Shown here in pieces: positions 369-51,592 of a stretch of 58,265 nucleotides of DNA. Under the pieces are notes generated by a model that was given only the letters and a program-made list of their open reading frames with translations, had not been told where the DNA came from and did not search any database. The stretch spans positions 1-58,265 of the forward strand of contig JAABQB010000015.1 of assembly GCA_011391695.1 (NCBI GenBank), written 5' to 3'. This DNA is from Desulfobacteraceae bacterium. GTDB lineage: Bacteria > Desulfobacterota > Desulfobacteria > Desulfobacterales > RPRI01. A program made the translations under genes and the position numbers. The first letter of the stretch is position 1. Every line of letters starts with the position of its first letter.

Positions 369-1748
369 ATGCTTGAGCGCAACGCTGAAAAATATTTAAA
401 TTCCTGGCACCAAAAGAGCCGAAGAAAACCTCTGGTGTTAAGAGGGGTCCGCCAGATTGGTAAATCGACACTGGTGCGCCAATATGCCCGAAACAACGGT
501 CTTGTTTTAAATGAAATTAACCTGGAACAGAATCTATATCTGGACAACATTTTTAAAACCCTTGATATAGATTTAATCACAAAGGAACTGGATGCCCTTG
601 TCGGAAGAAATATCCAGGCCGCGGGTTCTCTTCTTTTTCTGGATGAAATTCAGGCAACTCCGCATGCTATACATGCTCTCAGGTATTTTTATGAAAACAG
701 ACCGGAGATTCCCGTAATCTCGGCAGGCTCACTGCTGGAATTTGCACTTGCCGACCACTGCTTTTCAATGCCTGTCGGTCGAATCGAATACTACCATCTG
801 GGTCCCATGACCTTCAGTGAGTTTTTATCCGCTGTTGAACCGGATCTAAACCAATATCTTTCCGATTTTCATATCGATAAAAGCATACCTGTGACAGCTC
901 ATCAAAAACTTGTCAAACGGCAGCGGGAATATTTGTTCGTGGGCGGGATGCCTGAAGCCGTGAGCGTTTTTTCCGTAGAAAGCTCTTTAACGGAAGTTAC
1001 TGCCGTCCACCGCTCCATTGCCGGAACATACCAGGATGATTTTTCCAGATACGCAAAGCATAAAGACCTGGCCTTGATGCAGAAGGTTTTCCGGCAGATA
1101 CCAAGGATAATCGGACAGAAGGTTAAATACAGCAATATATCAAAAGAAGACAAATCGAGGGATGTTAAGAACGCTATCGATCTTTTGGTCAAGGCTCGCG
1201 TTTGCCATCAGGTTTTTCACAGTCATTGTTCCGGGGTGCCGCTGACAGCCGATATCAATGAAAATGTATATAAAATGCTCTTCATGGATGTGGGAATGGC
1301 AGCTTATCTTACAGGACTCGACTGGATTGCATTGCAGGCGCTCGACGGACAGTCCCTCGTAAACGAAGGCAAGCTGGCGGAGCAGTTTGTGGGTCAGCAT
1401 CTTTTGAATCCGTTTGAACCGCCCCGGTTGACCTATTGGCTGCGGGAGGTAAAATCAGCAAATGCGGAAGTCGATTATGTAACGGCAAACGGTAATCAGG
1501 TGATCCCCATAGAAGTCAAGGCCGGTAAGAGCGGGACGCTCAAATCCCTGCAACAGTTTGCTCTTATAAAAGAGGCGGCTCTCTGCGTTCGTTTTGATCT
1601 AAACCCTCCGGAGACAGGACGGATCACACATTCAGCAAGGGCTAACAGCGGCATTGTTCCCGTATCTTACACTCTTTTGTCACTTCCATTGTATCTGGTG
1701 GAAGAACTGCCGCGGATTTTAAATGAGATTCGATCTTCTGTTTCTTAA
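369..1748 (+). CDS. AAA ATPase with C-terminal DUF4143 domain
   Basis: A 459-residue protein of the AAA_14/DUF4143 family, which is widespread in anaerobes and archaea and has no settled physiological role. The P-loop GVRQIGKS is at residues 26-33 and the Walker B stretch LLFLDEIQ at 88-95. The C-terminal third contains an acidic-then-EVKAGK arrangement (EVDYV, then PIEVKAGK) resembling a PD-(D/E)xK nuclease-like core, as usual for DUF4143. Length is normal for the family. The chosen ATG has only a weak purine stretch (AGAGG) about 11 bases upstream. It appears to be a single-gene unit: the next gene is almost 400 bp away and functionally unrelated. These proteins are often mobile between genomes, which would fit its isolation, but no transfer marks are seen here. 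Confidence 0.9.
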   Translation: MLERNAEKYLNSWHQKSRRKPLVLRGVRQIGKSTLVRQYARNNGLVLNEINLEQNLYLDNIFKTLDIDLITKELDALVGRNIQAAGSLLFLDEIQATPHAIHALRYFYENRPEIPVISAGSLLEFALADHCFSMPVGRIEYYHLGPMTFSEFLSAVEPDLNQYLSDFHIDKSIPVTAHQKLVKRQREYLFVGGMPEAVSVFSVESSLTEVTAVHRSIAGTYQDDFSRYAKHKDLALMQKVFRQIPRIIGQKVKYSNISKEDKSRDVKNAIDLLVKARVCHQVFHSHCSGVPLTADINENVYKMLFMDVGMAAYLTGLDWIALQALDGQSLVNEGKLAEQFVGQHLLNPFEPPRLTYWLREVKSANAEVDYVTANGNQVIPIEVKAGKSGTLKSLQQFALIKEAALCVRFDLNPPETGRITHSARANSGIVPVSYTLLSLPLYLVEELPRILNEIRSSVS

Positions 1749-2144: not shown

Positions 2145-2618
2145 ATGAATAAAATACATATTTCTGACAGAAGAGGATTTCTAAAAATGGCGGCCTTAAC
2201 CGGGGCTGCCGCAATTGTAACCGGCATCCCCATTTCAAAATATGTCATTGCGCCTTCGCTTGGCAAAGGTGACGGCAAATGGATTGATCTCGGTGAAATA
2301 GGCGGTTTAGCCGCCGGCAAAGTGCAGATGGTCGCGTATGAATTTATGGTCAAGGACGGCTGGCTTGTGCTGCCGCAAAAAGGATTCGTCTGGGTTAAAT
2401 CTGATGGAGATGGCAAATTGACCGTATTTTCATCCATATGCACTCACCTTGCATGCAATGTAATCTGGCGGGAAGATGCCGGCATCTTCGAATGTCCCTG
2501 TCACTCGGGCCGATTTAACCTGGAGGGCAAACCGGTCGCAGGCCCTCCGACCCGCCCCTTAACAGTTCTGGAGCATAAAATTGAGGAAGGAAAAGTAAAG
2601 GTTTTATTAACTGTCTGA
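2145..2618 (+). CDS. Rieske 2Fe-2S protein, Tat-exported
   Basis: A 157-residue Rieske iron-sulfur protein, the electron-accepting partner of a cytochrome b in quinol oxidation. The two cluster boxes are complete: CTHLAC (C99, H101, with C104) and CPCHSG (C117, H120, with C119). C104 and C119 are placed to form the usual disulfide. The N-terminus has a twin-arginine-like signal (DRRGFLK) followed by a hydrophobic segment at about residues 16-36 that can anchor it in the membrane with the Rieske domain in the periplasm. The start is supported by GGAAGG just upstream. It is first in an operon with two haem proteins and a cytochrome b. Ligands and length match b6f/bc-type Rieske proteins. Confidence 0.96.
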   Translation: MNKIHISDRRGFLKMAALTGAAAIVTGIPISKYVIAPSLGKGDGKWIDLGEIGGLAAGKVQMVAYEFMVKDGWLVLPQKGFVWVKSDGDGKLTVFSSICTHLACNVIWREDAGIFECPCHSGRFNLEGKPVAGPPTRPLTVLEHKIEEGKVKVLLTV

Positions 2619-2651
2619 TTCATGCAAAACTCAAATTGAAGGAGGGTATCA

Positions 2652-3635
2652 ATGAAAAAGCAACTAATTACAGGCCTGGCATTATGTGTTGCAGCCATAT
2701 TCTTCGTTATCCTGGTTTCATCTATAAGTACCGCTGATGCAGCAGAACTGACACTGACTGCGAACATGGTTAAGGAAATCCCGGCAGGTCCGGACGCACC
2801 GGCCTGGCAAAAAGCCAAAGCAATTCAGATTCCCTTTGTGGGTAAAGAACAGTTCGCCGGGAAAAAAGCAGATGTGACGGCAAAGGCGCTTTATACCGCA
2901 GACACCGTCTATTTCCTTTTTAAATGGAAGGATGCCACTCAGAGTACCGTCAAAGGGGCATGGGAGTTCGACGGACAAAAGTGGTTCCATCGAAAAGGGA
3001 ATGAAGATCGTATATCTCTGTTGTTTGAGATAAACCGCATCAATAATTTTGCAACCAAAGGCTGCGCTGTGACCTGCCATGGCCCTGCCGGAAAACCTGC
3101 CAAAGAATTTAAGTTTGCCACTGCCAGCGCCGCTGAAAAAGGAGATCTATGGCAATGGAAAGCCGCCAGGTCAGCTCCGTATAATGCTGTTGATGACGGT
3201 TGGCTTACGGTTGCCGGTGAGAAGACCGGACGTCAGAACGATGCAGGCGGCGGCGGGGACGTTAAAAACGAAGTTACGGACAAATCCAAACCCCTCTACA
3301 TGCAGGATCCCGGCAAGAAACCATCTGCCCCAGGCTTTCTCCTGATGGAAGAGGCTGTAGAAATCAAGGATTACTCCGGTTTTAAAGCCGGAGATGTGAT
3401 CACCTATCAGATGCCGAAAAAACCTGACGGATCCCGTGCCGATGTCAAAGCCATCAGCAGCTACGGCGCCGGCGGCTGGACTGTCATGTTATCCCGCAAA
3501 CTGGATACCGGTCATGATGATGATGTGGTTTTCAATGCCCGGAAAAAATATCCGTTTGCGCTCGCCCTGTTCGATGATTCGGGAGATGAGAATTCCTACG
3601 ACTCGGAAGTGATCACCCTCGAATTTGGCCGTTAA
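2652..3635 (+). CDS. Ethylbenzene-dehydrogenase-gamma-like haem protein, paralog 1
   Basis: A 327-residue exported protein matching the haem-binding domain family of the gamma subunits of ethylbenzene dehydrogenase and dimethyl sulfide dehydrogenase. A Sec-type signal covers roughly residues 1-30 (cleavage near ADA-AEL). Family features are the N-terminal beta-rich start (TANMVKEIPAGPDAPAW), FKWKDATQS, and the C-terminal GHDDDVVFN segment. Within the domain is GCAVTCHG: C138, C142, H143, a CX3CH arrangement that could attach haem c covalently but departs from CXXCH. A strong GGAGGG precedes the ATG. It lies 33 bp after the Rieske gene and is followed by a paralog. In this position it may replace cytochrome c1/f as electron exit from the complex, which is inference. 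Confidence 0.88.
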   Translation: MKKQLITGLALCVAAIFFVILVSSISTADAAELTLTANMVKEIPAGPDAPAWQKAKAIQIPFVGKEQFAGKKADVTAKALYTADTVYFLFKWKDATQSTVKGAWEFDGQKWFHRKGNEDRISLLFEINRINNFATKGCAVTCHGPAGKPAKEFKFATASAAEKGDLWQWKAARSAPYNAVDDGWLTVAGEKTGRQNDAGGGGDVKNEVTDKSKPLYMQDPGKKPSAPGFLLMEEAVEIKDYSGFKAGDVITYQMPKKPDGSRADVKAISSYGAGGWTVMLSRKLDTGHDDDVVFNARKKYPFALALFDDSGDENSYDSEVITLEFGR

Positions 3636-3660
3636 AGTGAGGGCAAGGTTTTTATTGATC

Positions 3661-3701
3661 TGCCGCGGCAGAACAGTCTGTGGAGATGTTCTGCCACGGT
3701 A
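3661..3701 (+). other. Stem-loop between the two haem-protein genes
   Basis: TGCCGCGGCAGAACA (3661-3675) pairs with TGTTCTGCCACGGTA (3687-3701) with two mismatches and an 11-base loop. No run of T follows, so it is not a classical terminator. It may act in mRNA stability or partial attenuation between the paralogous genes. Confidence 0.55.
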
Positions 3702-3722
3702 AAAACTGCGGGAGCGTCAATT

Positions 3723-4739
3723 ATGAACAGGCGGTTGCTGTCATTCGGAATGATGTTTTTAGTTATCGGATGCATGAGCTTCGGGATGTATCGCATAGCA
3801 CAGGCGGCACAGTTGACCGTTAAGGTTGCCCATATTAAGTCAGCTCCGGCGGGTTTGGATGACCCTGTCTGGAAAAATATACAGGCAGTCTCTATTTCCA
3901 TGGAGGGACGGGATGCTCTGTCCGGCAGGAAAGAAACAATGGCTGCAAAGGCGGCGTACACAGACACGGACATATTTCTTCTGTTTAAGTGGAAAGATCC
4001 AACCCGAAGCGTAACCAAACAGTCCTGGATCTTCAACGGCATCAACTGGAAACACCTTCCGGGCGATGAAGACCGTCTGGCGATCCTTTTTGAAATTACC
4101 CGCATCAGTAAATTTGCCACCCGGGGGTGTGCGGTAACCTGTCATAGTCCACCCGAACTGTCAAAAGATCAGTGGGTGCTGGCAACAAAAAATGCACCTG
4201 AAATGGGTGATTTATGGCACTGGAAAGCCGCCCGGTCAGATCCGTATAAGTATGCGGACGATTCCTGGCTGACGATTCCCGGATTGCTGGGCGAATACGA
4301 CCCCAACAAACAATCGGGACGCCGTTCGGACGCGGGCAGCGGCGGTGATATCAAAAATGAGGTCGCGGATAAATCGAAGCCCCGGTACATGCCCGGACCA
4401 ACGCGCAGTGGGGGCGATTCCGGAGTTTTGCCGGCTGAAGATGCGGTTGAAATTACAGATTACACCATTTTCAAGCCCGGGGATGTTCTAACTTACCGGA
4501 TGCCCAGAAAGCCTGCCGGCTCCCGTGCAGACATCAGTGCGGTTTCCCGGTATCAGGATGGCGGCTGGATTCTTATGCTGTACCGCAAGCTGAATACCGG
4601 TCATGATGATGACGTCATCTTCGATCCCAAAAAACAATACAGTTTTGCCATGGGACTGTTTGATGATGCAGGTGACGATCACTCCAAAGCAACTGAACCG
4701 CTGACCCTGAAATTCCTGAAGTCAGACCGAAATTACTGA
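3723..4739 (+). CDS. Ethylbenzene-dehydrogenase-gamma-like haem protein, paralog 2
   Basis: A 338-residue paralog of the preceding gene, colinear throughout: signal peptide about residues 1-29, matching APAGLDDPVW, FKWKDPTRS and a closing GHDDDVIFD segment. The unusual CX3CH motif is conserved (GCAVTCHS; C136, C140, H141), so it is not a chance mutation in one copy. The middle linker (about 185-235) is longer than in paralog 1 and rich in Gly/Ser/Asp. GGGAG lies upstream of the ATG, and the cytochrome b gene begins 8 bp after the stop, indicating co-translation. Presence of two diverged copies suggests a heterodimer or two consecutive haem carriers in the same complex, which is inference. Confidence 0.88.
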   Translation: MNRRLLSFGMMFLVIGCMSFGMYRIAQAAQLTVKVAHIKSAPAGLDDPVWKNIQAVSISMEGRDALSGRKETMAAKAAYTDTDIFLLFKWKDPTRSVTKQSWIFNGINWKHLPGDEDRLAILFEITRISKFATRGCAVTCHSPPELSKDQWVLATKNAPEMGDLWHWKAARSDPYKYADDSWLTIPGLLGEYDPNKQSGRRSDAGSGGDIKNEVADKSKPRYMPGPTRSGGDSGVLPAEDAVEITDYTIFKPGDVLTYRMPRKPAGSRADISAVSRYQDGGWILMLYRKLNTGHDDDVIFDPKKQYSFAMGLFDDAGDDHSKATEPLTLKFLKSDRNY

Positions 4740-4747
4740 GGCAGTGT

Positions 4748-5827
4748 ATGAAAAATTCTGAAAACATGTCACAAGGATTGCTGAAACTGCTCGCTTTGGA
4801 TCATGCGGTAGACTTTCTGAAAAACACGACTATTTCAAGTGATGCACTTACATGGAAGCGGGTCTGCGGGTCGATAGCCACGGTTCTGGTTATCCTGCTT
4901 TTTCTCAGCGGAGCATTCATGGCGCTCTATTACTCCCCTTACCCGGGAGCAGCGTATGACAGTGTTCAATATGCTGAGTTTGATCTCCCGTTTGGAGATG
5001 TGATCCGGGGTATCCATCACTGGTCCTGGAACCTCTTGCTGGTAGTCATGCTCCTGCACATGACCCGGACATTTTTTACCGGTGCTTATAAACCGCCCAG
5101 AGAAATGGTCTGGGTTTCCGGTGTGCTGCTGCTGCTGGTTGTTCCGCTGGCCATAATCACAGGAGACCTGCTCCCATGGACGCAGGCAGGTTATTGGACA
5201 ACCCGGGTACGGGTCAGCATAATCTCTTCGGTTCCGGTGATCGGGCCGTTTATGGTTGATCTGCTGCAGGGCGGTCCACGTACCGGCATTGTGGCGCTGA
5301 CCCGGTTTTATGTGCTGCACGTGATTTTTTTGCCCGCGGGCATTATATCCCTGCTGGCTTTGCATTTTTATTTTTTGAGACTAAAAGGACTTGCCGATCC
5401 GATCATGCCTTCCCGACTCCCAAAACGGAATATTGCATTGCTTCCGGATATGATCAATCGATGGCTGATTCTGTTTATTGTGGTAACGCTGGCCATCGGT
5501 ATCGCAACCCGGTTCTGGTTCGCTGTTCCGTATGGCGATCCGGCCGATCCGTCAGACTCCCGCTTCGTTCCAAAACCGGAATGGTGGGTGTTGTTTCTCA
5601 ATCAACTGGTAAGCATCTTCAAAGGTCCTTTCACCATTGTGGGTTCAGCCGTCATCCCTGGCGCACTGGCTGGGCTGCTGCTTGTGCTGCCGTTTATCAG
5701 CCGGTCGCCTGAAAGGCGTCCTGTGCGCCGTTGGAAAGAGATACTCGTCGCAATGCTGATCGCTGCAGCCATTCTGGGTCTTTCCGTAATGTCATGGATC
5801 GAGCACTTTACATCAACGGTGGCTTAG
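4748..5827 (+). CDS. Cytochrome b, b6-type haem spacing, fused N- and C-terminal parts
   Basis: A 359-residue integral membrane cytochrome b with about eight transmembrane helices, equal in length to cytochrome b6 plus subunit IV fused. Candidate haem ligands are H90/H104 (13 residues between) and H191/H206 (14 between). The 13/14 pattern is that of cytochrome b6 rather than bc1. GDLLPW is at 139-144. The quinol-site motif is PEWW (277-280) in place of the usual PEWY, keeping the glutamate. A cysteine (C40) lies beside, but one residue off, the position of the haem c-n cysteine of b6. It is the last gene of the Rieske/haem-protein operon, so the unit encodes a quinol-oxidising complex without a recognisable cytochrome c1 or f. 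Confidence 0.94.
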   Translation: MKNSENMSQGLLKLLALDHAVDFLKNTTISSDALTWKRVCGSIATVLVILLFLSGAFMALYYSPYPGAAYDSVQYAEFDLPFGDVIRGIHHWSWNLLLVVMLLHMTRTFFTGAYKPPREMVWVSGVLLLLVVPLAIITGDLLPWTQAGYWTTRVRVSIISSVPVIGPFMVDLLQGGPRTGIVALTRFYVLHVIFLPAGIISLLALHFYFLRLKGLADPIMPSRLPKRNIALLPDMINRWLILFIVVTLAIGIATRFWFAVPYGDPADPSDSRFVPKPEWWVLFLNQLVSIFKGPFTIVGSAVIPGALAGLLLVLPFISRSPERRPVRRWKEILVAMLIAAAILGLSVMSWIEHFTSTVA

Positions 5828-6364: not shown

Positions 6365-7537
6365 TTATATCTTCAATTTTGTTTTCCGCATCGGCATATA
6401 ACCGCGCATGATTTCTATGTTCCCCTTGTATTTGTCCTTATCTTTGACAATCAAACCGAGTCTTTCAAGTTCTGCAAAGTCCCGCATAAGTGATGTCGGG
6501 GAGAGCCTGGCGTATTCCTTCGCCAGAATACCTGAACTCACTACAAGATCCCCGGGAGTATTCCATTTGTCCACAGGGAAATGAAGAGCAAGTGTTCGCT
6601 GCCGTTTTACAATGGCGCGGGTTTTGCCTGTAGCCTTTTTGCTGTCAAGAATATCATAGATGAGTTTATGCCATGACATTTCCAGAAGATTCATCTGAAC
6701 AATATCCAGAACACCCTTTAGCCCGTCCCGGAATCCAAGAACAGCATACTTGATAAAACCGGACATGTCTCTTGTCCGGACACATAGATCGAGCTGGCGG
6801 TAATATTCCTGCCGGGTATCGTTATAATGATTCGACAGGATGTGCGAAGCCATATCCGGCAAACCAGCCCGCAGTAGAATATAGAATTCGATCAGCCGGG
6901 CAGTTCGTCCGTTACCGTCTCCGAAGGGATGAATCATGGCGATGTACACATGAGCAACAATCGCCTGAAGAACCTGATCCGAAAACGATTGTTTTCCCTC
7001 TTCATAGCGGAATAAATCCCTCATCCATTCACAGAATTGGGTCATCAAGGAAGTTATTTGTTCCCCCCGGGGCGGCCTGTAAGTTCCCACAACAACGTTA
7101 TGTCCGGACACCCTGAACTTGCCGGGCATTCCCTGAAATTGATCTCCAAGATTCTTGCCTACGAAATAATTGAACCGCTCAATCAGTTCGATGGACAAAA
7201 TAAAGGCTTTCTCTTCAGAAATTACCTCGGAACGGATCTGATTAAGGGCGTAAAGTACATTCTTTACCTCTATTTGAAGATACTCCTTACTGGGTGGAAG
7301 ATTTTCTCCTTCATCAATACAAGCTACTTCCTCTTCGGAGAGTGTGTTTCCTTCGATAGCTGTTGTCGCTCTGGCTCCTTTCCGTAAAGAGACCGAAAGC
7401 AGCTGTTTTCTGTATTCCGGCTTTATCGGCGAAGAGGATATAGCTTGAACAATGGATTCGCTCTGCCCCAGCATGAAAATTGTTCCTTCATCAAGATGCC
7501 AGTTCTTTTGGAATGAAATGTGCGCGTATTCTTGCAT
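6365..7537 (-). CDS. Fic family protein with N-terminal inhibitory helix
   Basis: A 390-residue Fic-domain protein, a family that usually transfers AMP from ATP to hydroxyl side chains of target proteins. The full catalytic motif HPFGDGNGRTAR is at residues 203-214. The N-terminal helix has the inhibitory signature TTAIEGN with E62, which in class II Fic proteins blocks ATP gamma-phosphate binding, so the enzyme is probably self-inhibited. The C-terminal ~100 residues (about 290-375, with SSGILAKEYARLSPTSLMRDFAEL) look like a winged helix, as in the common Fic/DUF4172-type layout. No antitoxin-like gene is adjacent, consistent with intramolecular inhibition. A good promoter lies 49 bp upstream. 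Monocistronic. Confidence 0.93.
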   Translation of the reverse strand: MQEYAHISFQKNWHLDEGTIFMLGQSESIVQAISSSPIKPEYRKQLLSVSLRKGARATTAIEGNTLSEEEVACIDEGENLPPSKEYLQIEVKNVLYALNQIRSEVISEEKAFILSIELIERFNYFVGKNLGDQFQGMPGKFRVSGHNVVVGTYRPPRGEQITSLMTQFCEWMRDLFRYEEGKQSFSDQVLQAIVAHVYIAMIHPFGDGNGRTARLIEFYILLRAGLPDMASHILSNHYNDTRQEYYRQLDLCVRTRDMSGFIKYAVLGFRDGLKGVLDIVQMNLLEMSWHKLIYDILDSKKATGKTRAIVKRQRTLALHFPVDKWNTPGDLVVSSGILAKEYARLSPTSLMRDFAELERLGLIVKDKDKYKGNIEIMRGYMPMRKTKLKI

Positions 7538-10916: not shown

Positions 10917-10946
10917 TATATACTATCTACTATTCACTATTCACTG
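10917..10946. repeat. GTGAATAGT short-word block, right part
   Basis: Inverted words (ACTATTCACTATTCACT) that run up to and slightly into the 3' end of the cytochrome-like gene, whose last codons and stop lie at 10941-10955. Confidence 0.75.
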
Positions 10947-11396
10947 ATTATTCTCCACCGTCCATTTCTTTTTGAAGACCAGGCAGTAAAGGCTTGTAAA
11001 CAGAAACAGCATCACCAGCGTAAGATGGCTCAAATCAAGAAAAATAATGAGATTGTGAGAAAATATGTAGCCTTCGAAATTTCTTATTACAAGCAAAATC
11101 CCAGTGGTTATCAGGCCGATTATCAAAGCGCCCCTTAAATATCCTGTAGCGGATAATTTCAGCCTTTTCCTGTCTGAAAACATGTAATAAGTTGTAATAT
11201 ATGCCAAAAGACCGAGCAGGAGCGCTGCACAAGTGTAATGTATGTAGTGGGTTATATAAAACTTTGCCAGCCATCCCAGCCCTGGAATATCTGCGATGTA
11301 ATACCTTTTGAAAATAGGCATCTGTCCGAAGCCGGAGAGGGTAATAAAAAAAACCGTCAAAAGATACAGATATCGAATATTATTCTTTCGGCTCAT
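10941..11396 (-). CDS. Cytochrome-b-like membrane protein
   Basis: A protein of about 151 residues with four predicted transmembrane segments: LYLLTVFFITLSGF, then THYIHYTCAALLLGLLAYI, GALIIGLITTGILLVI and LTLVMLFLFTSLYCLVF. Histidines in the second and last segments (H-YIH, SHNL, SHL) could bind haem b. An earlier ATG at 11411 exists, but GAGGAAAG lies just before the ATG at 11396, which is preferred. It overlaps the 3' end of the 4Fe-4S gene by 17 bp, so the two are translationally coupled and probably form a ferredoxin-like/quinone membrane module. No catalytic subunit is adjacent. Family name uncertain; it resembles small cytochrome b561-like anchors. Confidence 0.75.
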   Translation of the reverse strand: MSRKNNIRYLYLLTVFFITLSGFGQMPIFKRYYIADIPGLGWLAKFYITHYIHYTCAALLLGLLAYITTYYMFSDRKRLKLSATGYLRGALIIGLITTGILLVIRNFEGYIFSHNLIIFLDLSHLTLVMLFLFTSLYCLVFKKKWTVENNQ

Positions 11397-12360
11397 CTTT
11401 TCTTTCCTCAATATCTTTTTTGGAATGTTTATAAAATGTTCCGACAGCGGCAGCGATACCCGCTATAGGTGCTATCACCATTGCGGCAACCAGATTGTTA
11501 GCCTTTTCCATGGAATCGGCTACGGCTTTAAGGTGAGGTTTCCCCTTGCCTGTTTCAATTGCTTTGTTTAATTCCTCAAAGGGAACGGGAGATACATAAA
11601 TGGTATTTGTTCCGCCGTTTTCATTTTCACCGTATATGTACCCGTTTGTTTCCTTTGCAAGAGCGTGTGCTTTTTTAATGATTTCATCTCTCGGGCCAAT
11701 CTCCTGAACATTTTCAGGACAGACCTCAATGCACGCCGGAAGCTTGCCTTCTGCAATACGATTGTAACAGCGGTCGCACTTGTACATCACGCCGTTTCCC
11801 GCTAAAGCAGGCAGAATATCAAGATAAAGTCCTATTCCGGTCTGCCGCTGGGGTATTTCCCACGGGCATACTTCCTTGCATTTGGCGCCTCCGAGACAAA
11901 GGTTCGGATCTAAACGGGATATGCCGTTTTCGAGCTGTTTTGCCGCTCCCCAGGGGCACAGCTTGACACATGGCGGATTTGTGCAGTGCATGCATCGTCT
12001 TGGTATGGTAATCGTTTTCTGCTCCCCGTTCACCGTTACATCCGCGCTCTGTATATAGAGCCAGTTGTAGGGGGTTAGACGGTCATTGATGTCTCGTTTT
12101 TCCGACCAGTCTTCCGCTTTTACTCTATCCGGGTACATTTTCGGAAAAGGTTTCTTAGGTTCGGGATATTTTCCGGCATTTACCTCGCTGCAGGCTTCGA
12201 CACATGCCCCGCACCCGATGCATTTACCGATATCAAGCAGGGTCGCCAGTTGTTTATCTTTATCGGCTCCGGCTGCCGAAGCCGGAATGCCTGATGCCGC
12301 GACTGCGCACGCGGCAAGGCCGCCCTTTATAAAGGATCTTCGTGAAATATTTCCGGTCAT
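11380..12360 (-). CDS. Tat-exported four-cluster 4Fe-4S protein with C-terminal anchor
   Basis: A 326-residue electron-transfer subunit of the DmsB/FdhB/HybA type. A twin-arginine signal (SRRSFIKGG) opens it and a hydrophobic helix near 292-312 (NNLVAAMVIAPIAGIAAAVG) can anchor it, with a charged cytoplasmic tail. Cluster cysteines: C47/C50/C53/C57; C123/C126/C131/C135; C155/C161/C165 with glycine at 158 where a cysteine is expected; C195/C198/C210/C214. The third box is therefore incomplete and may hold a 3Fe-4S or use another ligand. It is coupled to a small cytochrome-b-like gene and followed by a 29-residue membrane peptide and a sigma/anti-sigma pair. The partner catalytic enzyme is not in this window. 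Confidence 0.92.
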   Translation of the reverse strand: MTGNISRRSFIKGGLAACAVAASGIPASAAGADKDKQLATLLDIGKCIGCGACVEACSEVNAGKYPEPKKPFPKMYPDRVKAEDWSEKRDINDRLTPYNWLYIQSADVTVNGEQKTITIPRRCMHCTNPPCVKLCPWGAAKQLENGISRLDPNLCLGGAKCKEVCPWEIPQRQTGIGLYLDILPALAGNGVMYKCDRCYNRIAEGKLPACIEVCPENVQEIGPRDEIIKKAHALAKETNGYIYGENENGGTNTIYVSPVPFEELNKAIETGKGKPHLKAVADSMEKANNLVAAMVIAPIAGIAAAVGTFYKHSKKDIEERKDEPKE

Positions 12361-47709: not shown

Positions 47710-47860
47710 GGTGGATAGACTGCAGGCTGTTAGGCTGTAGGAGAAAAATGGGTTGGGTGCTCCCGAATGCGGGTCGAAAATGGTAGGGACCGAGAAGGTT
47801 TTGACAGCCTTGATGCGGTCTATGTGTGGCGCGCAGCCTACAGTCTATAGCCTATCATGC
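47710..47860. repeat. Inverted short-word repeat pair between convergent genes
   Basis: GGATAGACTGCAGGCTG then TTAGGCTGTAGG on the left, and CCTACAGTCTATAGCCTATC at the right end (47837-47856), which reverse-complements to the left set. It lies between convergent pyrG and the GlmS-like gene and touches the latter's stop, so it may terminate transcription from both sides. Confidence 0.65.
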
Positions 47861-50800
47861 AAGTTTTGATACAATGAATTCAGCTATCTTCTCGGCGGAT
47901 ACTCCAAAGAGCTCTTCCATCTTTACCAGATCAAGATATTTGTCTTCCCACGCCACACTGTTTTCCTGAACGATATTTTTTATATGATCATACTTTCCGC
48001 CCAAGGCTTTTATCTTTATCGGGAGCGGCACGGTTTCCCTGAAATAGATATGGAGTAAAAGAAGATTGTCAATGATATTGGGGCTGCCGGGAGAAGCAGA
48101 TATTGCGGGTATGATAATTATGCTGCGGTCGTCTTTCCTCCCTTTCCCAATGTACACATTGCCCTGCTTAACGATAATTTTTTTGGTTCCTTTAAGACGA
48201 TGATCGGTTTCAACGCGTGATGGAATTGATTTTAACGTGCCGTCTTTACTGGCTATTTCAATTGTTGTGTCTTCTGTTAGTTCACCCAGAAGGTTCAGTC
48301 CGCTGATCTTGTATAGAATAGACCCCTTGATTTCCGAAACAATATCCTGCAAATTTTTCAAAACCAGAATGTTCATATTTGTAAGTTGAGAGTGGCTGAT
48401 ATTATGGGCAGAGAGAGAATCGAAGAGTATCCCGTAAAGTTTTTCGCTTATGCGGCTTGTTCCGACAGTAACTGTTTTAGCCTGGTGCTTTATGGCATCT
48501 ATCGGTCTGGACAGTTGGTTTATAGATTCACCAAGAGATTTAATCAGGGTGTTAATCATATTAAGGGCGGTTCCCTTTAAACCGAAATCGAGCTCAAAAT
48601 CAGATACCGGCAGCTTGCCGGAAAGATACTTGCAAAGCAAAACAAGATTTGAAGAAGCATCAAGGCTCATGATCGACGGGAAACGGTTCTCGTTCTTCTT
48701 TTGACGGAAGTCGTTGTAAAACCGGGCTATTTTTTCTCTGAATGATTTTTCAAGAATTAATTCATATATATCAACTCCATGTTCGTGCCGGTCATTAATG
48801 GTGTTTTCAATCTCTTCCCTGAAATTATACATGAATCTTGAACCTTCATTGATGGATAATGCCGCATAGTATCCCCAGATATGGCCTGCAAGAGTATTTA
48901 ATATCGGGGCGAGGTGCTGGCTTACAACCGGAACATGGAAAACATCTTCGGCATACCGACCGAATCTCTCTTCACCTTCATCGGCTATAACAATCGGTGT
49001 AGCCTTATGTGCCTTGAATATCGCGGTATCTTTTATGATGTCGCCGATAACATTGTCCCTTGTTCCGGCAGCGCATATGATGATCAGAGGCTCGGATGAG
49101 AGATCTATATGTTTTTTATCTTCAATGTAATCAGAGGAGATTGTCTTGTAACACAGCTCGCTGAGCTTTATCCGGATTTCGTCGGATGATGCCTTGTTGG
49201 GGCCGCTTCCCACAGCCGCCCAATATGTTTTTGTTACCGCAAGTCTTCCGGCAGATGCTTCAATCTTGTCGCGCAGCAAAAGAACTTTTCTCATTTGTGA
49301 AGGAAGCTCAAGGAGGTTTTTTATCTCTTCTGATATGAACTCCCCGTTTCTGCGTTCCAATAATCGGGCAATAAAAAGGCTGAGAATGCTCCCTGCAACA
49401 ATCTGGCAGTAAAAAGCTTTTGTTGATGCAACCGACATTTCGATATCGCGTCCGCTGCTTGTATAAATAACGCCGTCAACCTTGAAAGTAATATCCGAAT
49501 CCCTCCGGTTAACTATGGCAATAGTATGAGCACCTCTTTTTTTAACCATCTCGACTGCGCGGTTTGTATCTGTTGTTGTCCCCGACTGGCTTATTGCAAC
49601 AACAAGGGCATCCGACATGCCGGACGGATTTTCGTTCCGACCAATCTTGAACCCACTTAGTTCAGATGCTTTATGGGAACTGATATTGATAGAAGGATCG
49701 TCCAGATAATAGTTTAGTATGTCGGAGCATACGAGCGCAGCGACTCCTGCCGTCCCCTGGCCGATAAAGTAAATCCGGCGAATTATGTTATCCCTGAGTG
49801 CGATTTTAAGGGATTCCGGGAATTCCTTTTCCGAAAGAAAAACCGAAGGCTTTTTACTTTCATGGTCGATCTTCCATCGGTTTTGAAGGGTTTTTTCAAC
49901 CGAAGAGGGAGATTCGGAGATCTCTTTGAGAAAATAATGGGGATAATTCTGACGGTCAATATCCCTGGAAGTAATATTCGTATATTTTATATCCTTTTCT
50001 TCAAGCGGAACCGGAGTGTTATCGTAAAACATTGCTTTAATACCGTCAATCCCGCCATTCGATTTCTGGTTTAATATGAATATCTGTCCCTGGGTGCTCC
50101 CGTTTTTACCTTCAACTGTTTTTTCTCCTTCCAGTTTCAGGTAATACGGCGTCTCTTCTATTAATCCGTAAACTTCGGAAGCCGGTATATAGTGGTCTTT
50201 CCCTATTCCGATAAAGACCGCCTGACCGCTTCCCTTCTGTGCAAGAAAAAACCTGCCCGGATCGAGGTCGGTATGCATTGATATGGCGTGGGATCCTTCA
50301 AAATCATTTACAGCGAGGCGAAAAGCTTCCTCGACTTCAAATCCCTTGTTTAAGTATTTTTCAATCTGAAGAGGTATTATCTTCGTATCTGTTGTTATCT
50401 CCCCATGGATAAGATTGCCGCTGCTTTCATATTCTTTTTTAAGCTTAAGGTAATTATCGATGTCTCCGTTTAAACATACGTGGATGATGCCCTTTTCTCC
50501 GGCACAGCCTCCTGTCGTACGGCCGTCAACAGGGTGACAGTTTGCCTCTGTAATGGCGCCGACAGAAGCCCATCTCGTGTGGGATGAAACAGTATGATAA
50601 AGGTTCGGAAAAGAGGAAAGTATCCGGAGTATGCGGTCGTTTTTTATCTGGGAACGCAAAAAAGAGATATTGTCTCCAAGGCTTCCTATCTCTGCCGCAA
50701 TCTTATAAACGAAAGCAAGAGTGACAAGCGGATTTCCGTTTTTCTCTTTTATCCGGTTGATTGTTATCCCGCCATTCAGAAGAATATCAGCGCTTGAGCG

Positions 50801-51592
50801 CTCCTTTAAAATACCTGACAAGTTCTCGTTTGTTATAATTTTCTCAAAGCTTGCGTATTCCGAATCATCCATGGCAAACATCAGGGAAATACCCGCTGAA
50901 TCCCGACCTCTTACCTCAAGACGGTCTATGCTGTTTAAAACCGCGTTTATGTTTTTGTATATGGTTACGGTTGTAAAAGAAGGGCTGTTATCCGACGCGC
51001 CCATAAGTTCGTTTATCTTTGATATGTTTTGCCCGATTTCGCTGGAAAGGGTCCATGAAATATCCTTCAGATTTTCAATCCGGTTTGACATTATATCAAC
51101 TGCTGAAGGTTCAAGTTGCCCCATTTTCTCTGAAAGCACTTTTGATTCCGAATCGATTATGTCGTTTATCTGTTTTGACAGGGATGCAAGTTTCCCCTGA
51201 TGTTTTTTACTGGTATATATGCCGAAAAACTGCTCGTCTCTTTTTAATTCCCTGACGTTTTCAAGAAGAGATTCAATGATCTTTTTCCCGCAAAGGTAGT
51301 TGTCATCAATCGAATAATTATTCTTTATGCAAAGATCAAAGGATCGGGCTTCAATTTTTTCTATGCTCTCTTCAATAAAGGCCATGTCGGTTTTAACAGC
51401 CGGTGTTTTCTCCTTTTTGAAAGAGACTATGCCGGCAAGGCCGCAGCATAGAACATTTTGCCGGCATGGGAAAAATATAAAGGAGTTGCAGGGAACGTCG
51501 GCTGGGTATTTTCCGAAATAGAGCTTTGCGGAAAGGTAGAAAAGGAGCTTTGGGATTCCGTTTGCGATAAGTTTTAGAATGTAGTTTGTCAT
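47855..51592 (-). CDS. Very large GlmS-like protein (glutaminase plus SIS domains)
   Basis: A 1245-residue protein, about twice the length of GlmS. The class II amidotransferase part is recognisable: CGLAGIV with C50, RGRDSAGI at 228-235, HTRWASVGAITEANCHP at 338-354 and LNGDIDN at 374-380. An insert of about 170 residues, mostly helical, separates the cysteine strand from RGRDSAG. Two SIS isomerase halves follow (AISQSGTTTDTNRA and SVASTKAF, then VGSGPNKASSDEIRIKLSE), then a C-terminal extension of over 300 residues with no family I can name. The nucleophile is not N-terminal: 49 residues precede C50, so processing would be needed. It probably makes an amino-sugar phosphate, but this is uncertain. 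It follows kdsB by 30 bp. Confidence 0.85.
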   Translation of the reverse strand: MTNYILKLIANGIPKLLFYLSAKLYFGKYPADVPCNSFIFFPCRQNVLCCGLAGIVSFKKEKTPAVKTDMAFIEESIEKIEARSFDLCIKNNYSIDDNYLCGKKIIESLLENVRELKRDEQFFGIYTSKKHQGKLASLSKQINDIIDSESKVLSEKMGQLEPSAVDIMSNRIENLKDISWTLSSEIGQNISKINELMGASDNSPSFTTVTIYKNINAVLNSIDRLEVRGRDSAGISLMFAMDDSEYASFEKIITNENLSGILKERSSADILLNGGITINRIKEKNGNPLVTLAFVYKIAAEIGSLGDNISFLRSQIKNDRILRILSSFPNLYHTVSSHTRWASVGAITEANCHPVDGRTTGGCAGEKGIIHVCLNGDIDNYLKLKKEYESSGNLIHGEITTDTKIIPLQIEKYLNKGFEVEEAFRLAVNDFEGSHAISMHTDLDPGRFFLAQKGSGQAVFIGIGKDHYIPASEVYGLIEETPYYLKLEGEKTVEGKNGSTQGQIFILNQKSNGGIDGIKAMFYDNTPVPLEEKDIKYTNITSRDIDRQNYPHYFLKEISESPSSVEKTLQNRWKIDHESKKPSVFLSEKEFPESLKIALRDNIIRRIYFIGQGTAGVAALVCSDILNYYLDDPSINISSHKASELSGFKIGRNENPSGMSDALVVAISQSGTTTDTNRAVEMVKKRGAHTIAIVNRRDSDITFKVDGVIYTSSGRDIEMSVASTKAFYCQIVAGSILSLFIARLLERRNGEFISEEIKNLLELPSQMRKVLLLRDKIEASAGRLAVTKTYWAAVGSGPNKASSDEIRIKLSELCYKTISSDYIEDKKHIDLSSEPLIIICAAGTRDNVIGDIIKDTAIFKAHKATPIVIADEGEERFGRYAEDVFHVPVVSQHLAPILNTLAGHIWGYYAALSINEGSRFMYNFREEIENTINDRHEHGVDIYELILEKSFREKIARFYNDFRQKKNENRFPSIMSLDASSNLVLLCKYLSGKLPVSDFELDFGLKGTALNMINTLIKSLGESINQLSRPIDAIKHQAKTVTVGTSRISEKLYGILFDSLSAHNISHSQLTNMNILVLKNLQDIVSEIKGSILYKISGLNLLGELTEDTTIEIASKDGTLKSIPSRVETDHRLKGTKKIIVKQGNVYIGKGRKDDRSIIIIPAISASPGSPNIIDNLLLLHIYFRETVPLPIKIKALGGKYDHIKNIVQENSVAWEDKYLDLVKMEELFGVSAEKIAEFIVSKLA

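Follow-up and report, generated by a model that had tools for sequence, protein, structure and literature searches.

Cytochromes c1 and f are the textbook example of non-homologous proteins that occupy the same slot in bc complexes. In the SoxL-SoxN-CbsA(B) system of Sulfolobales and Thermoproteus, CbsA, a b-type cytochrome, has been termed an analog of c1 (PMC5461723, PMC3189178, PMC11486757). A Rieske/cytochrome b pair without cytochrome c1 has been described from Caldithrix (PMC5317091), and an unusual Rieske/cytochrome b cluster from Methanoperedens (PMC4683180). Here, we analyze a four-gene operon located at positions 2145-5827 of a contig from a Desulfobacteraceae bacterium (accession # JAABQB010000015.1; the whole stretch of 58,265 nucleotides is referred to as the window). 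This operon is a bc1/b6f-like respiratory gene set, in which two EB_dh-fold proteins, designated EB-A and EB-B, stand at the usual place of c1 or f. Judging from the sequences, the operon probably encodes a low-potential, menaquinol-oxidizing Rieske/cytochrome b complex, in which the heme c of EB-A replaces c1 or f and EB-B serves as a second acceptor or exit shuttle.

The four open reading frames lie on the same strand in the order Rieske, EB-A, EB-B, cytochrome b, with gene-to-gene gaps of 33, 87, and 8 nt. A preliminary description of the window had reported this tight order, with coordinates that we find to be right, as well as a Tat-exported Rieske protein with complete cluster ligands, two exported EB_dh paralogs, and a fused cytochrome b with b6-type histidine spacing; all of these were borne out (Table 1). 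The cytochrome b had significant matches to PF00033 (Cytochrome_B, E 4.8e-41) and PF13631 (E 1.6e-41), and its best match among PDB profiles was cytochrome b6 (2zt9_A, E 3.5e-48). As is typical of bc complexes, it has four heme-ligating histidines and a PEWY-type Qo motif in which the Glu is retained; this PEWW variant is invariant across the main cluster, and the sister form at locus L110 has PEWY. Cytochromes b of this family have no fused CXXCH domain and end at most 8 residues past position 352. Of the next-best cytochromes b in the phylum, the five that were examined have a C-terminally fused CXXCH domain; these are separated from the family by a gap in E-values (1.9e-77 for the next best versus 7.8e-168 for the last true family member). 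Residue C40 (window 4865-4867) aligns with b6 Cys35 (heme cn); a heme-cn cysteine is not claimed, however, because only some relatives share the Cys and many have Phe, Ser, or Thr instead.

The Rieske protein has both ligand boxes of an exported bc-complex Rieske protein and a twin-arginine translocation (Tat) signal (TIGR01409, 22.7 bits, cut-off 16.7). It is the single Rieske match in the genome and is closest to PetC models; in every cluster relative, box I reads CTHLxC or CSHLxC. The second-sphere positions of Ser and Tyr are occupied by Gly and Phe (CPCHSGRF). In yeast, loss of the Ser and the Tyr lowers the Rieske potential by about 130 and 65 mV, respectively, as reviewed in PMC12954380, where one exception to the Tyr rule is also given. 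The absence of the Ser/Tyr pair found in high-potential clusters therefore suggests a low-potential cluster, which would fit menaquinol, and a complex that uses it.

EB-A and EB-B scored 186.5 and 170.2 bits, respectively, against PF09459 (gathering cut-off 33.3), and both score and fold place them in the EB_dh family. Their predicted models matched 2ivf_C (Z 19.2 for EB-A and 20.1 for EB-B) and 7b04_C (Z 18.8 and 19.6); the superpositions aligned 192-202 residues with a root-mean-square deviation of 2.8, which corresponds to the fold of EbdC and NXR-C. Matches to CBM9 structures (Z about 13-14) were taken to reflect a common beta-sandwich fold and nothing more. Both proteins contain GCAVTCH, and the CX3CH motif is invariant in all 26 EB-A and all 24 readable EB-B sequences; together with the signal peptide, it conforms to the Cys-Xn-Cys-His pattern of an exported c-type cytochrome. 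The closest solved relative by sequence is NXR-C, in which Met155 and Lys305 are the ligands of heme b, "as in EBDH" (PMC8387239). These ligands are located in MGDRQKPVNLWHWKA and DRNGQK, respectively. The EB proteins of the cluster retain LWHWKA, the CX3CH loop stands where NXR-C has the Met, and near the position of the Lys, EB-A has xSYDSE and EB-B has HSKATx. In these sequence alignments, which place the residues approximately, heme-b ligands of the Met155/Lys305 type are not conserved. With CX3CH present and the Met/Lys ligands lost, EB-A and EB-B are most likely c-type cytochromes built on the EB_dh fold, and not heme-b gamma subunits; the preliminary description had called them ethylbenzene-dehydrogenase-gamma-like heme proteins. 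That description had also stated that no c1, f, or CXXCH cytochrome is encoded. Indeed, the operon has no gene for cytochrome c1 or f, and its four genes contain no CXXCH motif; however, the implied lack of c-type heme does not hold, given the CX3CH in both EB proteins. The host genome encodes two CcsA-family proteins, one adjoining ResB, and several multiheme cytochromes of the c3 family, so heme c can be made.

Table 1. Features of the operon, with positions given in the window.
Feature	Position	Strand	Evidence
Rieske [2Fe-2S] protein, 157 aa, Tat signal	2145..2618	+	PF00355 E 1.5e-10
Tat motif SDRRGFLK	2163..2186	+	sequence; TIGR01409 match
Rieske ligand box I, CTHLAC (C99, H101)	2439..2456	+	sequence
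Rieske ligand box II, CPCH (C117, H120)	2493..2504	+	SGRF directly after
EB-A, exported EB_dh-fold protein, 327 aa	2652..3635	+	PF09459 E 1e-54
CX3CH motif CAVTCH of EB-A (C138/C142/H143)	3063..3080	+	sequence, alignment
EB-B, exported EB_dh-fold paralog, 338 aa	3723..4739	+	PF09459 E 1e-49
CX3CH motif CAVTCH of EB-B (C136/C140/H141)	4128..4145	+	sequence, alignment
Fused b6/subunit-IV-like cytochrome b, 359 aa, without C-terminal heme-c domain	4748..5827	+	PF00033, PF13631
First heme-ligand pair H90/H104, 13 residues between	5015..5059	+	sequence, alignment
Second heme-ligand pair H191/H206, 14 residues between, b6-type	5318..5365	+	sequence, alignment
PEWW, variant of the Qo-site PEWY	5576..5587	+	alignment

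In the proposed complex, the fused cytochrome b would oxidize quinol at its Qo site. One electron would pass via hemes bL and bH across the membrane to the Qi side; the other would pass to the Rieske cluster and from there to the CX3CH-bound heme c of EB-A, with EB-B as a second acceptor or as the shuttle to the periplasmic cytochrome c pool. We infer the quinol oxidase activity and the Q-cycle, as well as the covalent heme attachment, the assembly into a single complex, the order EB-A then EB-B, and the low potential. Gene content, motifs, and conservation give good support to the earlier proposal of a quinol-oxidizing Rieske/cytochrome b complex with a non-canonical electron exit.

When 84,980 species genomes were scanned with EB-A, seven close loci were retrieved, each of them from an uncultured bacterium of the Desulfobacterota type. 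The Rieske, two EB, and cytochrome b genes occur together in six of these; the seventh (L009), a scaffold broken by N gaps at intervals of about 1.4 kb, is uninformative as to its missing Rieske and cytochrome b genes. The preliminary description had suggested examining genomes for co-occurrence of the EB_dh, Rieske, and cytochrome b genes. In the host's order, 35 of 389 genomes had an EB match with E<=1e-30. For the 25 with E<=1e-100, a cytochrome b gene adjoins in every case and a Rieske gene in 23, the other two loci being cut at contig ends; among the weaker matches, cytochrome b adjoins in only one of ten. Because about 25 genomes retain the gene set, chance is excluded. Across the phylum, the unit is carried by only 3 of 395 genomes (G000, G333, and G352). 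Outside the host's order, the gene set is found at L044. None of the nine congeners has it; the distribution is thus patchy. A search of a plasmid collection returned no EB_dh relative except a weak match in Bradyrhizobium.

The gene order of the window is shared with L007 and L069, and elsewhere the cytochrome b gene precedes EB-B; in every main-form cluster, EB-A directly follows the Rieske gene. According to the preliminary description, the proposal would be refuted if relatives regularly had an ordinary cytochrome c gene linked to the cluster, but the surroundings of the clusters show no recurring CXXCH cytochrome family. The apparent CXXCH cytochromes beside some clusters were discarded, as they are single motifs in regulator- or sensor-like open reading frames or lie on the opposite strand. 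Among the neighbors, genes for a response regulator (12 loci) and for a histidine kinase (9 loci) are the most frequent.

In the maximum likelihood phylogeny, the EB-B sequences form a single clade (support 95/97), and EB-A and EB-B are united at 100/98, with two solitary homologs (family f16) nested in A. The EB sequences of genomes G632 and G460 are the sister group of EB-A and EB-B (support 100/98). In G632, the Rieske gene is followed by genes for b6 (217 aa), subunit IV (138 aa), and one EB_dh protein; the pairing of EB_dh with Rieske and cytochrome b thus predates the EB-A/EB-B duplication, which is what a role of EB_dh in the c1/f slot would lead one to expect. We lean, by a little, toward a bacterial class of Rieske/cytochrome b complexes in which a CX3CH cytochrome of the EB_dh fold would have been independently recruited for the c1/f step; a later duplication would have given a core acceptor (EB-A) and an exit cytochrome (EB-B), tuned for low-potential anaerobic chains.

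The known parallels of this operon are archaeal and distant. Like the SoxL-SoxN-CbsA-CbsB system (cytochrome ba complex), it combines a Rieske protein and a cytochrome b with a replacement for c1, and the cluster contains no molybdenum enzyme; unlike that system, with its b-type CbsA, it has two EB_dh paralogs with CX3CH and no CbsB. The CbsA model TIGR03154 did not match any window protein at E<=1 and had no match in the genome; one distant homolog scored 15.3 bits (cut-off 468.4). CbsA probably has an EB_dh fold; S. acidocaldarius has a PF09459 match, which may be a different gene, and our literature search returned no paper that joins CbsA and EB_dh. The haloarchaeal nar operons also hold Rieske, cytochrome b, and EB_dh genes in one cluster, together with NarGH; there, however, the EB_dh protein passes the TIGR03477 cut-off (217 bits versus 169.85) as a genuine type II gamma subunit, retains the Met/Lys motifs, and is encoded beside a molybdenum enzyme. 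With cytochrome b6f, the operon shares the histidine spacing, the best PDB profile match, and the relationship of the Rieske protein to PetC; it differs in the fused cytochrome b with PEWW, the absence of cytochrome f, and a heme-cn cysteine that is not family-wide. The complex had been suggested to be possibly undescribed. The archaeal system is a precedent for it; for the bacterial two-paralogue form with CX3CH, we found no description in the searched literature, which did not extend to subscription papers, so that a prior mention is possible.

The fold that EB-A and EB-B share with EbdC and NXR-C (Z about 19-20) might also mean that they hold a non-covalent heme b as those proteins do, in which case the complex would be a bacterial twin of SoxLN-CbsAB and the two cysteines would form a disulfide or be structural. 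The weak matches to TIGR03477 (type II gamma, heme b subunit; 44.9 and 40.2 bits, cut-off 169.85) point in the same direction. In contrast to EbdC and NXR-C, however, both proteins have CX3CH with an invariant His and have lost the Met/Lys ligand positions, and we regard a non-covalent heme b as unlikely. The EB_dh family name, and the haloarchaeal nar operons in which all three components are combined, would fit gamma subunits of an unlinked molybdenum enzyme that stand beside the Rieske and cytochrome b genes by history only. We rejected such a role as highly improbable: the genome's only two EB_dh genes sit in the operon, no gene for a molybdenum catalytic or Fe-S subunit lies beside it in the window, the gamma-subunit ligands are lost, and all the EB proteins remain far under the TIGR03477 cut-off.

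Several observations weigh against the heme c of EB-A as the replacement of c1 or f. Beyond their signal peptides, the EB proteins have no membrane segment, and the C-terminal anchor typical of c1 and f is absent; they may be soluble partners and not subunits. Solitary CX3CH EB_dh proteins also exist, some of them adjoining octaheme cytochromes. Under this alternative, EB-A and EB-B would be separate soluble periplasmic cytochromes, similar to cytochrome c6, that accept electrons from the Rieske protein. The conserved gene set and order, with EB-A always adjoining the Rieske gene, argue against it, and we give it a small probability; its main difference from the integral complex is one of stoichiometry, and EB-B could well be such a cytochrome. 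Moreover, CX3CH is rare, and its attachment to heme by the host ResB/CcsA is putative; EB-B is missing from one genome (G742). His314 (EB-A numbering), near the NXR-C Lys position, is invariant in EB-B and is a candidate for its distal ligand, and EB-A is without a second conserved His in the C-terminal loop; the two hemes may therefore differ in ligation. For the four proteins, the matrices of pairwise distances are correlated (r 0.67-0.91; 0 of 2000 permutations), which is compatible with inheritance as a unit, but the permutation significance also reflects shared ancestry, which alone raises r.

The preliminary description had placed all other known EB_dh domains in molybdenum enzymes, which proved too narrow, since those with CX3CH also occur on their own or beside octaheme cytochromes. 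At five loci (L115-L118 and L120, in genomes G734, G477, G570, G675, and G753), solitary EB_dh proteins with CAVSCH adjoin cytochromes with eight CXXCH motifs, possibly a further EB_dh electron-transfer pair. In genome G447 (L119, 971-8213), Rieske, cytochrome b, octaheme cytochrome, small cytochrome, and a 908-aa EB_dh fusion are encoded in one run, which is a more distant Rieske/cytochrome b/EB_dh association. At two further loci (L045 and L046), a solitary EB-A-like protein is encoded at a distance of about 1 kb from the gene for a ResB-like protein of cytochrome c biogenesis; the latter contains an odd CX4CH motif (CKGQDCH/CKGQECH).

The operon is flanked by genes for an AAA/DUF4143 ATPase (369-1748, plus strand; PDC-S01, E 4.1e-145) and a Fic-domain protein (6365-7537, minus strand; PADLOC SoFic, E 1.6e-52), which are possible defense-type genes. 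Further along the window, on the minus strand, a Tat-exported HybA/HmcB-like 4Fe-4S protein is followed by a small membrane protein for which no family match was found (10941-12360), and a 1245-aa protein (47855-51592) has a GlmS core at residues of about 332-912 with long N- and C-terminal extensions.

The host is a sulfate-reducer-like bacterium with dsrA (616 bits). A heme-copper oxidase was not found in its genome, which makes oxygen, used via such an oxidase, an unlikely end acceptor. The proposed complex, if true, would show how dsrA-bearing anaerobes without a heme-copper oxidase may use a bc complex. The archaeal CbsA case would gain a bacterial parallel, and the operon is a compact four-gene target for spectroscopy and cryo-electron microscopy. 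Alongside c1 and f, bacteria would have a third type, which is a beta-sandwich with two paralogs and an unusual heme attachment, and the range of proteins that can follow the Rieske protein would thereby be widened.

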